A DNA stretch of 64,000 bases, from assembly GCF_003726095.1 (NCBI RefSeq), contig NZ_CP026031.1:1674001-1738000 (forward strand). Reading direction: 5' to 3'. The stretch comes from Niallia circulans (lineage in GTDB: Bacteria > Bacillota > Bacilli > Bacillales > Cytobacillaceae). A program made the position numbers and the translations under genes. This document shows, piece after piece, positions 1 to 34,567 of the stretch (its first letter is position 1; each line of letters starts with the position of its first letter). The notes below the pieces were generated by a model that did not search any database, was not told the DNA's origin, and saw only the letters and a program-made list of their open reading frames with translations.

Positions 1-2102
1 TTTTGTGCAGCTTCTAAAGAATTGGCCTCTTCCTTCACTAGCTGTAAATAGTCATTTATTTCTCTAAGCATTTCTGACTCTGACTTCCATTTTACAATAA
101 CTGTTTTATGTGGATGCTCTTCATCAATTGGTAATATTCTGTTTATGGTAGCAGTTGTTGGGTTTGGTGATACCGGCAAAATGGGATAATCAAGTAATGC
201 ATTGGCAAATGAAGATTTTCCAGCACTAAAAGCTCCAAATAAGCATATAGTATATGTTCGATTTTCAATAATGGCAGCTTTATGGAATAAATTCTTCGCT
301 ATATGCGCAAATCCCTTTACTTGTTGAAGCCTGCTGCTTAAAAAGCGCAACTGTTTTAATAATAAATCTGTATCCATTTCCTTCCTTTCGTTTTGTTTTT
401 GAACTTCAGCAGGTTTTAGATTCTTTTGTACGTTTTTTGTTTTGGAAGAGGATAGTGACCGATAAGTTATCTCTTCCTCGCTTGTATCAAGTAAACTTCG
501 CAAAATGCTCTCGTCTACGTTTTGTGCTTCACAAAGATGTTCCAGCTCTTCTTTCCACACTTGCCATTTAGTCTCTACTTCTTCTTTTTTCACCTTACAG
601 TTTACAAATGCTTGCCATTTCTTTTGTTCTTTTAGAAGGTTTTCTTTTTCAATCTGTAATTGTTGCTTTCGTTCTTCTTTCCACCTATTAAATAGTTGGG
701 TGATTTCCTTCCTGAAAGACTGCTTCAAATCATTTTCAACTGTTTCACAATAGACTAGAACATAATTTTCGGAAAGCTGTGCGTTTTTATTTACTAACGC
801 TTTTAATGTCTGGATACTTAAAATAGATGTCAGTCCTTTAATTAGCGAAAAAAACTCTGCCTTCCCCTGTTTCTCAAAAAACTGAGATAATGGTGTTATT
901 AATTGAATTTGAACAAGCTTTTCCAATTCTGTGTAAAAAGTTAAAAGTCTATCTTCTCTTTCCTTTTGCGTTTTGCTTTTACTACCAAATAGGCCAATTT
1001 TAAAATTTTTCTGTTCTGATTCTAGATATGATTTAGCCAGTTCCCGAAGATTATATGGCATGATATAGGCATTCTTAATAATTGAATGCCACTCATTTTC
1101 TAATGACATTACTGTTTTATTTTCAGTTTCATCCATTGTTTGAATGGCTTTTTTGGTTGACTCTAAGCTTGCTTCTAAAGAATGATACTCTTCTTCTGTT
1201 AATTCTGATAACTGATCTTCGAAAGGAGCGATTATTTCAGCATTCTTTGTTTCTATAAAGGAAATATGATCTTTATATAGCTTTTGAAAAGATTCTTCCA
1301 AGGAGTAAGGCAGTATTAACTCTTGTTCTTCCATTTTTCTTATAATATAGGTCTTTAATTCTGCCAATCCTTGATAGAAATAATTGGTTTCGATTAAGGT
1401 TGTAAAGAATATTTTCTCTGGCTTTATCCCATAGGATAAAAAAGAATCATATACACTTTGCTTAAAATCTGCAAACGAAATTTCTACTTCTCGATGTTTA
1501 TCCATCTGATTAACAATTAACACAAATTTCTTACCTGAATCCACAAGCTCTTTTGTAAAGTCAAAGTTGATTTCCGACTGAACATGATTATAATCAACTA
1601 CATAAAAAATAATATCTGCAAGATGGATACTAGATTCTGTTGCTAATTGATGAGCTTGATCTGTACTATCTATTCCTGGGGTATCCATTAAAATAGCATT
1701 CTTTATTAGCAGCTCCGTATCTAATTGAACCTCTAATTCCTTTATATCCTCCACTCTTTCTGTTGCCTGTAGAACTGTTTTGATATCAAGCACTTCTTTA
1801 TAGACATCTGCTTGATTAGAATGATATAAAACTTTCAGCTGCTTGCCACCCTTTTTTACTCGGATAATATTAGCTGTTGTTGGAATAGGACTTGTTGGTA
1901 AAACTGTTGTACCAACTAGGTTGTTAATCATGCTTGATTTCCCGGCAGAATAATGACCACAAAAAGTTGCAATAAATTCTTGTCTTGTCGCTTTTTTAAT
2001 AAGCTCTTGCAATCTTTGCGCAGTTTGTTGATCATCATATGCCAAAAAATATTGGTAATATGCTGCCCATTTATGTAATGTGTCTATATTCGTTGAAAGC
2101 AT
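1..2102 (-). CDS. dynA: Dynamin-like GTPase DynA/YpbR, N-terminal 700 residues
   Basis: Large bacterial dynamin of the YpbR/DynA type, cut by the window edge. The reading frame is open from the ATG to base 1. Two GTPase modules are visible: a first P-loop (GHYSAGKSS, about residues 49-57) with DTPG near 140 and NQMD near 198, and a second P-loop (GAFSAGKSS, about residue 626) after a long charged helical stalk. The two-in-one layout is typical of Bacillus DynA, a membrane-bound protein that tethers and fuses membranes and helps cells withstand phage and membrane stress (family knowledge). An AAGGAG-like RBS precedes the start. The second module's G4 motif and the C-terminus lie outside the window. 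Confidence 0.93.
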   Translation of the reverse strand, partial: MLSTNIDTLHKWAAYYQYFLAYDDQQTAQRLQELIKKATRQEFIATFCGHYSAGKSSMINNLVGTTVLPTSPIPTTANIIRVKKGGKQLKVLYHSNQADVYKEVLDIKTVLQATERVEDIKELEVQLDTELLIKNAILMDTPGIDSTDQAHQLATESSIHLADIIFYVVDYNHVQSEINFDFTKELVDSGKKFVLIVNQMDKHREVEISFADFKQSVYDSFLSYGIKPEKIFFTTLIETNYFYQGLAELKTYIIRKMEEQELILPYSLEESFQKLYKDHISFIETKNAEIIAPFEDQLSELTEEEYHSLEASLESTKKAIQTMDETENKTVMSLENEWHSIIKNAYIMPYNLRELAKSYLESEQKNFKIGLFGSKSKTQKEREDRLLTFYTELEKLVQIQLITPLSQFFEKQGKAEFFSLIKGLTSILSIQTLKALVNKNAQLSENYVLVYCETVENDLKQSFRKEITQLFNRWKEERKQQLQIEKENLLKEQKKWQAFVNCKVKKEEVETKWQVWKEELEHLCEAQNVDESILRSLLDTSEEEITYRSLSSSKTKNVQKNLKPAEVQKQNERKEMDTDLLLKQLRFLSSRLQQVKGFAHIAKNLFHKAAIIENRTYTICLFGAFSAGKSSFANALLDYPILPVSPNPTTATINRILPIDEEHPHKTVIVKWKSESEMLREINDYLQLVKEEANSLEAAQ

Positions 2103-2311
2103 GATATACTCCTTTTCATCTATGTATTTCTTTTATTTTAACTATTTTCCACATAACAATAAAGTAAAATAAACTGAAAATTGAAAGCGAAGACAAAATA
2201 ACTTGGTTCATTTTCCTTGTAATTTAAGTACTGACTAATGTGTGTGACGGTAAGATAAGAAATACCCTTATAACTTTTTCCCTCACTATAATTTACATAA
2301 TAAAATAAAAA

Positions 2312-2372
2312 ACTGTTTTTCCTTTACAGCACTATGTACCTACCTGTAGGAGTGCTGTAAAGGAAAAACAGT
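2312..2372 (-). terminator. Strong intrinsic terminator of the Fur-boxed small unit
   Basis: Perfect 22-bp inverted repeat (arms 2312-2333 and 2351-2372) around a 17-nt loop that itself holds CCTAC/GTAGG. Read on the minus strand the stem is followed by TTTTTATTTTATT, so it fits a Rho-independent terminator lying 27 nt after the stop of the 29-codon ORF and about 210 nt upstream of dynA. Confidence 0.8.
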
Positions 2373-2398
2373 ATAATCCTTTTTATATGTTATTTCCT

Positions 2399-2488
2399 TT
2401 ATTTCGTTGCATTTGTAGTATTATGTAAAACATATTTCATAATAAATAAATAACTGATAATCGTTACACCAATAGGAAAAGCTATCAT
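2399..2488 (-). CDS. Putative 29-residue hydrophobic peptide, Fur-regulated (unrecognised)
   Basis: Small ORF starting MIAFPIGVTIISYLF and ending NTTNATK. Residues 1-22 form one hydrophobic stretch long enough to span a membrane; the tail is short and polar. The ATG has a good RBS (AGGGGTG, 6-nt spacing). It lies inside a self-contained unit with a SigA promoter and Fur box upstream and a strong terminator downstream. No homologue is recognised. Fur-controlled small proteins (FbpA/B/C) and the sRNA FsrA act in iron sparing in B. subtilis, so an iron-starvation role is an inference from the operator only. The transcript of roughly 230 nt could also act as an RNA. Confidence 0.55.
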   Translation of the reverse strand: MIAFPIGVTIISYLFIMKYVLHNTTNATK

Positions 2489-2538
2489 TCGTTACACCCC
2501 TATCATTTTACCTGAGAATAATTCTCTATCTCAATTAA

Positions 2539-2568
2539 ATAATATCATTATTGAAAATCATTTTCAAT
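2539..2568 (-). promoter_or_regulatory. SigA promoter overlapped by a Fur-box-like palindrome
   Basis: On the minus strand a -35 TTGAAA (2562-2567) and a -10 TATTAT (2539-2544) are separated by 17 nt. A 19-bp palindrome at 2550-2568 covers the -35; its core TGAAAATcATTTTCA matches 12 of 14 positions of the 7-1-7 Fur consensus TGATAATnATTATCA. This arrangement predicts repression by Fur when iron is plentiful. Operator identity is inferred from sequence alone. Confidence 0.6.
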
Positions 2569-2736
2569 AAGAAAAAAGTTATCCAATTTTTAGTATTTTT
2601 TCTTATAAAGTCTGTTAAACCAACAAAAATAGGAAATATGTACCACGAAAAATAACCTATTTTCATAAAAAAATATAAACAAAATAGGTCTAATTTATGA
2701 TAAGATATTTTTATCAGACGGATGGGGGAATAGTTA

Positions 2737-3189
2737 GTGACATTAACAAAAAGTACTACTGAAATTTTAAACGCAACTATAGAAGCTGTAAAAGGTGTTA
2801 TTCCCTGCGAACTACAAATTGAGAAGCCAAGTTTAACTGTATCACCATTTATTTTACAATCTTTAGGGGTTTTAATAGGATTAACAGGTGATTTCCGTGG
2901 TCGAATTATTATTGACGGAAACGAACAGGTTTTTGGTAAGATTGGCGAATCCATGTATGGGATGTTCTTGGAAGGGCCAATGCTAGAATCATTCTCTGGG
3001 GAATTAGGTAATATGCTTGCTGGAAATTTATCTACCTTTGTATCTCAAAGTGGAATTGAAATAGATATTACACCACCTACTGTTTTAGCAGGTCAAACGA
3101 AGCTTTCTGGGTTTGATAAGGCTCTAACCCTGCCGATTTCGCTTCAAAATATTGGGCAATTAAACATTGTGCTAATTTTAGAGATTTAA
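2737..3189 (+). CDS. CheX-like chemotaxis phosphatase family protein
   Basis: 150-residue protein of the CheC/CheX/FliY phosphatase fold. The typical helix signature is seen as ELGNMLAGNLST around residue 90 (the E..N pair is catalytic in the family), followed by a Gly-rich beta sheet ending in LNIVLILEI. Family members remove phosphate from CheY-P. No chemotaxis gene is adjacent; cheR lies 53 kb away. The start is a GTG with GGGGGAA 6 nt upstream. It is transcribed away from dynA and ends at a bidirectional hairpin. Some single-domain relatives act outside flagellar chemotaxis, so the target is open. Confidence 0.8.
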   Translation: MTLTKSTTEILNATIEAVKGVIPCELQIEKPSLTVSPFILQSLGVLIGLTGDFRGRIIIDGNEQVFGKIGESMYGMFLEGPMLESFSGELGNMLAGNLSTFVSQSGIEIDITPPTVLAGQTKLSGFDKALTLPISLQNIGQLNIVLILEI

Positions 3190-9157: not shown

Positions 9158-9558
9158 ATCAATATCACGCTCTATAAGCCATGTTCTGTTCCTTTGTACT
9201 CATGCGACTTTTTATCTCGTACTAAGGCGGTAATCATCTATCTACAGAAATTAATTTCTGTCCTTCTCTTCCGTTCATTTCCTCAGAGAAAGTTCCCCTA
9301 CCATAATTTGGGTTTCTCGCTCGTGGGGTTTACCTCGTTCCACCCTTGTCATTTCTGACAAAGCTACGTCACTGTGGCACTTTAAAAGTATTCATACCAT
9401 ATCCGAAGACTTAGGTATTTTCCCTGCCGTCAGCATTAATATGCTGCCCTAGCTTATTTTTTGACTAGGCACGAACACTACAAGCATCTCAGCTTGTGCG
9501 AGCATGGACTTTCCTCTACAAACAATGTTTGCAGCGATTACCAAAGCGTTTTATTGAT
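9158..9558 (-). ncRNA. rnpB: RNase P RNA, type B
   Basis: Catalytic RNA of RNase P, about 401 nt as in B. subtilis. Conserved pieces on the minus strand include GGTAATCGCTGCA, GAGGAAAGTCCATGCTCGCA, GTGTTCGTGCCTAG, GCCACAGTGACG, GGTGGAACGAGGTAAACCCC, GCGAGAAACCCAAAT and the 3' block ACAGAACATGGCTTA. The ends were set by the P1 helix: the ATCAATA near 9558 pairs with the TATTGAT near 9158. Lies between gpsB and ypsC, the standard Bacillus location. Ends are accurate to a few bases. Confidence 0.97.
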
Positions 9559-34423: not shown

Positions 34424-34567
34424 ATTGTTTTATATGTCTATTTTCATCCCTCTGTCCTTGTCCAATTGTGGATCTAGGCAGATTAAATTATGGTTTATGC
34501 ACATTCAAACATACTGGTGCAGTTCATTAAGATACTGCCCGACAAAAGCATTATAACAAATATTTCT

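Follow-up and report, generated by a model that had tools for sequence, protein, structure and literature searches.

An unannotated micro-gene lies on the minus strand at 2570-2299 of the window (the whole stretch of 64,000 nucleotides that was analysed), between dynA and a CheX-like gene. The next gene downstream is dynA, which encodes a dynamin-like GTPase; its 5' part occupies positions 1..2102 of the minus strand (PF00350, E 2e-45) and the gene runs off the window. On the other side the CheX-like gene (2737..3189, plus strand; PF13690, E 6e-12) is a divergent neighbour. A sigma-70-type promoter (2539..2567, minus strand) consists of TTGAAA at 2567-2562, 17 nt and TATTAT at 2544-2539, with an extended -10 TG. 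As an earlier note on this sequence had described, this promoter lies under a Fur palindrome, Fur box 1, which covers the -35 element and whose 7-1-7 core (TGAAAATCATTTTCA, 2552-2566) matches at 12/14 positions; the palindrome is, however, 23 bp long (2548..2570) rather than the 19 bp given there. A second Fur-like box had been overlooked: TGAGAATAATTCTCT at 2513..2527, with 11/14 matches, lies immediately downstream of the predicted transcription start, spanning roughly positions +5 to +19. Also present as described are the ribosome-binding site AGGGGTG (2495..2501, minus strand), which precedes the ATG at 2488 by 6 nt, and a 29-codon ORF (2399..2488, minus strand; stop 2401-2399) encoding the 29-residue peptide MIAFPIGVTIISYLFIMKYVLHNTTNATK; the ..GGTG.. 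context ahead of the start codon recurs in many relatives. The unit ends at an intrinsic terminator (2299..2372, minus strand) with a perfect 22-bp stem (2312-2333 / 2351-2372), a 17-nt loop and the U-rich tail TTTTTTATTTTATT. Both stem and U-tract are as first reported, and only the spacing needs correction, since the stem starts 26 nt and not 27 nt past the stop codon. On its own the promoter match lacks significance (15 in the region against 14.3 expected), in a scan that allowed hairpin loops of 3-8 only and did not detect the 22-bp terminator hairpin as such.

The predicted transcript folds with a z of -5.0 and beats all 200 shuffles, which is largely due to the terminator, whose stem is retained, with some pairs broken, in four other Niallia genomes. 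A short, strongly folded RNA of this kind, together with the known Fur-controlled sRNA FsrA of bacilli, would suit the suggestion that the transcript has a dual function as a Fur-controlled regulatory sRNA that also encodes a peptide. Against this, the five Niallia genomes conserve the promoter and operators, the ribosome site, the ORF and the outer terminator stem, but not the body of the 3' UTR; changes on both sides were seen in 8/77 predicted pairs, seven of these eight in the terminator hairpin; and the locus gave no Rfam match, so that a known RNA family was also rejected. With no conserved RNA element beyond the ORF and terminator in the five genomes, this alternative from the earlier note finds no support and is considered very improbable.

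The peptide belongs to a widespread family. In a DNA search of 41 genomes some match was found in 21, and all 15 loci that were kept encode the same kind of peptide. A profile of 14 peptides gave a match in 189/193 genomes of the window's GTDB family, covering 24/25 genera; six of these 189 genomes had more than one match. A 20-peptide profile matched 22/398 genomes sampled from the class, and a 55-peptide profile 166/397 sampled from the order (47/133 genera); the genomes of the order sample with no match may reflect true absence or divergence. The loci comprise a first set of 97 and 59 further rows, giving 156 rows; L085 was dropped as the same place as L094. Some peptides of the further rows are identical to ones in the peptide set A4; these come from other genomes and are not fully independent sequences. 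Two of the 59 (L194, L232) represent one place in genome G605, so the 156 rows stand for 155 places and the 138 rows used below for 137.

Selection on the codons was estimated from 36 disjoint pairs of relatives selected so that their first 26 codons are 70-99% identical; the pooled values are pS 0.32, pN 0.06 and dN/dS 0.15. The closest named relative at the locus is Niallia circulans NBRC 13626 (L016; 83% peptide identity); between the window and N. circulans pS is 0.33 and pN 0.07. It is clear that the codons are under purifying selection and that the micro-gene is a real coding gene. Codon conservation, for which a Ka/Ks near 1 had been named as the contrary outcome, is thus borne out, and a dN/dS of 0.15 rules out a chance ORF. 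A repeat element was likewise rejected; in the DNA search the window's genome showed no second matching place apart from the hairpin's own reverse complement.

The predicted Fur-type operator is present at the micro-gene promoter, and it recurs throughout the family. Since the peptide profiles contain no promoter information, the 138 rows found by peptide alone (that is, excluding 18 rows whose genomes also matched in the DNA search) were compared with control stretches drawn from the same loci, counting boxes with at least 11/14 matches. A Fur box within 110 bp upstream was found in 138/138 of these rows compared to 82/4692 controls, and two boxes 30-46 bp apart in 104/138 compared to 0/4692. 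Among the first 97 loci a box is present in all 97 and a pair at this spacing in 83, where dinucleotide shuffles average 6.0 and 0.04; all 59 further rows have a box and only 37 of them a pair, and so the paired operator is less constant in the more distant relatives. In the 37 loci where the boxes are exactly 39 bp apart, as in the window, the layout is identical, box 1 lying over TTGAAA and box 2 just past the start, and TG.TA...T is kept 17 bp after TTGAAA in 37/37.

The 5.18-Mb single-contig genome has seven zero-mismatch TGAWAATNATTWTCA sites, box 1 of the window among them. With one mismatch allowed the pattern occurs at 46 places and a backward-read control at 29; weaker sites are therefore often due to chance. 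The other zero-mismatch sites include one flanked by Peripla_BP_2 and FecCD genes, one ahead of an AraC+Peripla_BP_2 gene, a third at a DUF2573 gene and a fourth ahead of an ABC ATPase gene (Pfam: ABC_tran only) that we read as siderophore-type. Another is intergenic, at about 1501-1515 of locus L107 (C1:1155755), upstream of an ABC exporter gene and with no obvious adjoining gene; this stretch is possibly an unannotated small gene or sRNA. A further one, at about 1501-1515 of L108 (C1:1442143), lies between a YitT-family gene and a 126-aa ORF with no Pfam match.

The peptides share a simple plan. Across the 156 rows the most hydrophobic 17-residue stretch has a hydropathy of 1.58-2.88. Residues 1-15 have no net charge in 152 rows and a charge of -1 in four, and the part that follows them is positive in 151. 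A simplified insertion scale rates the best 17-residue stretch as marginal (+0.42 in the window; below zero in 88/156). AlphaFold modelled a 32-residue relative as one helix over residues 3-28 (mean pLDDT 81.5). Conservation along the helix is periodic, its moment peaking at 100 degrees per residue with a p of about 0.002, a value that is indicative as the sequences are related. The conserved face comprises, in family numbering, F5, T9, Y13, V20 and V24; the window peptide deviates on it with P5 and T24, and L21, which is not part of this face, shows high conservation as well. The strongest conservation falls within the helix and not in the basic tail, which in most peptides is short and weakly conserved. 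These features predict a single-span membrane micropeptide with charge asymmetry, and the conserved T/Y stripe within the putative membrane helix suggests docking on another helix. Together, the conserved codons, paired Fur-type operators and hydrophobic helix lend strong sequence support to the proposal that the micro-gene encodes an iron-regulated membrane micropeptide.

Type I toxins are similar in size and have one hydrophobic helix. The peptide could by this likeness be a membrane-active, toxin-like product that lowers membrane potential or growth in iron starvation. However, the family occurs mostly at a fixed chromosomal locus and nearly always once per genome, and conservation of T9 and Y13 within the helix is likewise at odds with such a role; the idea is judged highly unlikely.

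A long-tailed form was also seen. At least 38 residues are present in 23/156 rows, and 19 of these 23 peptides end in TR, compared to 11 of the 133 shorter ones. Peptides of this form, 42-56 aa in length, occur in several Bacillales families (L182, L185-L188, L191, L195-L197, L201, L205, L212, L225, L227, L228, L233, L235, L236, L242, L246 and L101) and often end in ..HxTR or ..TTR, as if the C-terminus bound something.

The earlier note recognised no homologue, but profiles reveal a relation to FbpC, whose gene in Bacillus subtilis occupies the same place upstream of dynA. The window peptide itself matches no Pfam or NCBIfam model, including the FbpC model NF033217, and hence belongs to neither the FbpA (PF13076) nor the FbpB (PF13040) family of Pfam. 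A relative from another genus (G024) gives a full-length match to NF033217 (E 3.2e-4; 20.4 bits), the best score in the window's GTDB family; in another genus the best is 34.2 bits (G261). Among the matches listed for the 41 relatives, those of G024, G018 and G021 lie at the fbpC locus; the other, weak ones listed lie elsewhere and were not used, nor was a weak match in G243 (L088, 22.2 bits), which had no Fur box in the scanned stretch. The 60-bit curated cut-off is passed by 0/41 relatives and by 4/299 genomes of the class, all of one genus; the B. subtilis control passes. The window peptide is therefore not a member of the NF033217 equivalog. At lower stringency than this cut-off, common descent is indicated by profile-profile alignment (hhalign) of 14 relatives with six FbpC or near-FbpC peptides, which gave an E of 5.2e-7, ungapped over 29 columns; the score of 28.0 was reached by none of 200 block-wise column shuffles (best 19.5). 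Furthermore, peptides intermediate between the window type and FbpC are present in other genera, and the loci that exceed the FbpC cut-off are alike in size, paired Fur boxes (33-36 bp apart in these four) and a helix-then-basic-tail plan.

In the portions of the literature available, FbpC is 29 aa long and B. subtilis fbpC is among the sites where Fur binds with NsrR/ResD (PMC6212828, PMC8464778). B. subtilis FbpC thus resembles the window peptide in size class, and the two have in common one hydrophobic segment with a small basic tail, paired Fur boxes and dynA next downstream on the same strand. Unlike the window peptide it matches NF033217, the two being 17-21% identical with cores of IGFVL in FbpC and MKYVL in the window, and its neighbour is a ypbQ-like gene where the window has the divergent CheX-like gene. 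Given the profile match to FbpC and the position upstream of dynA, with the cut-off not reached, we call the micro-gene a distant FbpC homologue and positional orthologue outside the NCBIfam equivalog. Other candidate relations were rejected: the best hit among solved structures had an E of 2.4, and DUF2788, Flp_Fap, RhoGEF67_u2 and EYxxD gave weak single-member matches (E 0.009 to 0.14; 1-2 of 14 members).

Position upstream of dynA is the strongest sign of kinship with FbpC. The same-strand downstream neighbour is dynA in 86/97 loci, the four that exceed the FbpC cut-off among them, and in 54/59 further rows; one locus (L156) holds two dynA pieces, so that 87 cluster members represent 86 loci, and L066, L149 and L161 lie near contig ends. 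In L205, L207, L231, L237 and L240 the flank examined, of 2 kb or less, showed no dynA. Upstream, two further genes precede fbpC in some three quarters of these 97 loci (clusters of 74 and 75 members), which we take to be ypbQ-like and bcsA-like. A CheX-like upstream neighbour is found in 17 loci, of which 13 belong to the window's genus, two to family f25 and two to other groups; it is common to all 13 examined genomes of that genus, and dynA is also downstream in 16 of the 17. The ypbR gene of B. subtilis is presumably dynA. Part of one source, a table in PMC4448311, gives the gene order ypbQ-ypbR in B. subtilis.

This arrangement could mean that FbpC is a dedicated partner of DynA that tunes dynamin-driven membrane remodelling under iron shortage, hence the genes lie side by side. 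Consistent with this, the adjacency persists when the upstream neighbour is CheX-like, dynA is still 1.5 kb downstream of fbpC in G024, and none of the 15 sampled genomes that lack dynA has an fbpC match. However, dynA is present in 382/397 sampled genomes and fbpC in 166, and nine of the 15 dynA-less genomes are of one family; because dynA is nearly universal, co-occurrence with it tells little about function. In G018, from a fragmented assembly, dynA is on another contig than fbpC. Furthermore, the upstream neighbours are nearly as stable as dynA, and therefore the link can be accounted for by slow decay of gene order. In 65/96 loci fbpC is followed by a terminator-like hairpin (17/96 after shuffling), a rough count as the scan overlooked the 22-bp hairpin of the window and gave none in N. 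circulans (L055); this too speaks against a DynA-dedicated role, which is considered quite unlikely.

In the sections of published papers available to us, fbpC forms, with the genes of FbpA and FbpB, a trio of Fur-regulated genes for small proteins in the iron-sparing response of B. subtilis (PMC7430163, PMC8464778), and FbpC is assigned to FsrA-dependent RNA regulation (PMC7430163, PMC8464778, PMC12871923, PMC9037510). Grouped with FbpA and FbpB, it is suggested or postulated to be a chaperone in the relevant text of PMC7430163, PMC8464778 and PMC12871923, and is said to have been shown to act so in that of PMC9037510. FbpC would then be a small basic RNA chaperone that aids pairing of FsrA with its targets, its hydrophobic stretch being incidental or no more than a tether by which FsrA targets reach membrane-bound RNase Y. 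A net charge of +2 or +3 in 101/156 peptides agrees with such a role, as does the presence of FbpA- and FbpB-type genes, Fur-regulated small proteins of the same response, in the window's genome. Most of the FbpC-type peptide is, however, a conserved hydrophobic helix, unlike FbpA and FbpB, which are separate families and whose eight domain matches examined are not hydrophobic (hydropathy maximum at most 0.31 on their own strand). Conservation that is strongest in the helix, and not in the basic tail, also counts against RNA chaperone activity. In the excerpt of PMC8464778, moreover, RNA binding is stated to be unconfirmed for any Fbp. No FsrA exceeded the Rfam cut-off in the window's genome, which is no proof of absence as the model may be narrow. 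The features of the peptide fit a partner-docking membrane helix better than a soluble RNA chaperone, and we consider the chaperone reading unlikely. Within the text returned by searches of the open-licence literature with FbpC terms, no mention of a membrane location for FbpC was found.

From the coding gene with its paired Fur-type operators, FbpC relation, dynA locus and hydrophobic helix, we infer the following course for an iron response in this Niallia. Iron-loaded Fur, bound to the two operators over the -35 element and just past the start, would shut the promoter; under iron scarcity a short mRNA of about 230 nt, ending at the strong hairpin, would be made. The 29-residue peptide would insert into the membrane with the N-terminus facing outward and the tail, mostly positive, in the cytoplasm, and the conserved helix face is probably laid against a membrane-protein partner. 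Docking would alter the activity or stability of this partner and so could form a protein-level arm of the iron-sparing response. Taken as a whole, this view of a stand-alone, Fur-repressed fbpC-type gene whose product is a membrane micropeptide that docks on a partner seems to us rather likely. For a broader form of the idea the chances are about even: that FbpC is not an RNA chaperone and founds a large, mostly unrecognised family of Fur-controlled membrane micropeptides, present in many Bacillales families, that dock one helix face on a partner and so provide iron sparing at the protein level within the membrane, several lineages having a long cytoplasmic ..TR tail.

The putative mode of action of FbpC is likened here to that of the transporter-acting small proteins MgtS and MntS. 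In the text of PMC10710835 that was available, MgtS (31 aa) and MntS (42 aa) act under depletion of their metal. MgtS, MntS and AcrZ of Escherichia coli, like the proposed FbpC, are small proteins, and they act on transporters; the analogy would be functional only, as these proteins differ from FbpC in their metals and regulators, have known or proposed partners, and no sequence relation is claimed.

FbpC is already known as a kind of protein. Within the reach of our searches, what is new is its distribution across the order, the frequent doubling of its operator, its membrane-helix nature with a conserved face, its nearly constant dynA neighbour and its long-tailed form. The homologue set displays what selection keeps, namely a one-faced membrane helix and usually a doubled Fur operator, and makes the role of FbpC approachable by experiment; with the new profile, annotators can find a gene that escapes the NCBIfam model in all but one genus.

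Several minor observations were made at or near these loci. In the part of the riboswitch-prediction paper PMC4448311 that was available, the B. subtilis ypbQ-ypbR intergenic region is among the RNA switch candidates; to judge from the gene order, it is probably the fbpC transcript. A stretch of approximately TTTTGAAGGA..GTTGCTGTGC, on either strand, lies beside fbpC in six loci of Niallia genomes (L006, L007, L009, L012, L010 and L015). Elsewhere in the window, a class B RNase P RNA is present at 9170-9549 and a pan motif at 34448-34541, both on the minus strand.
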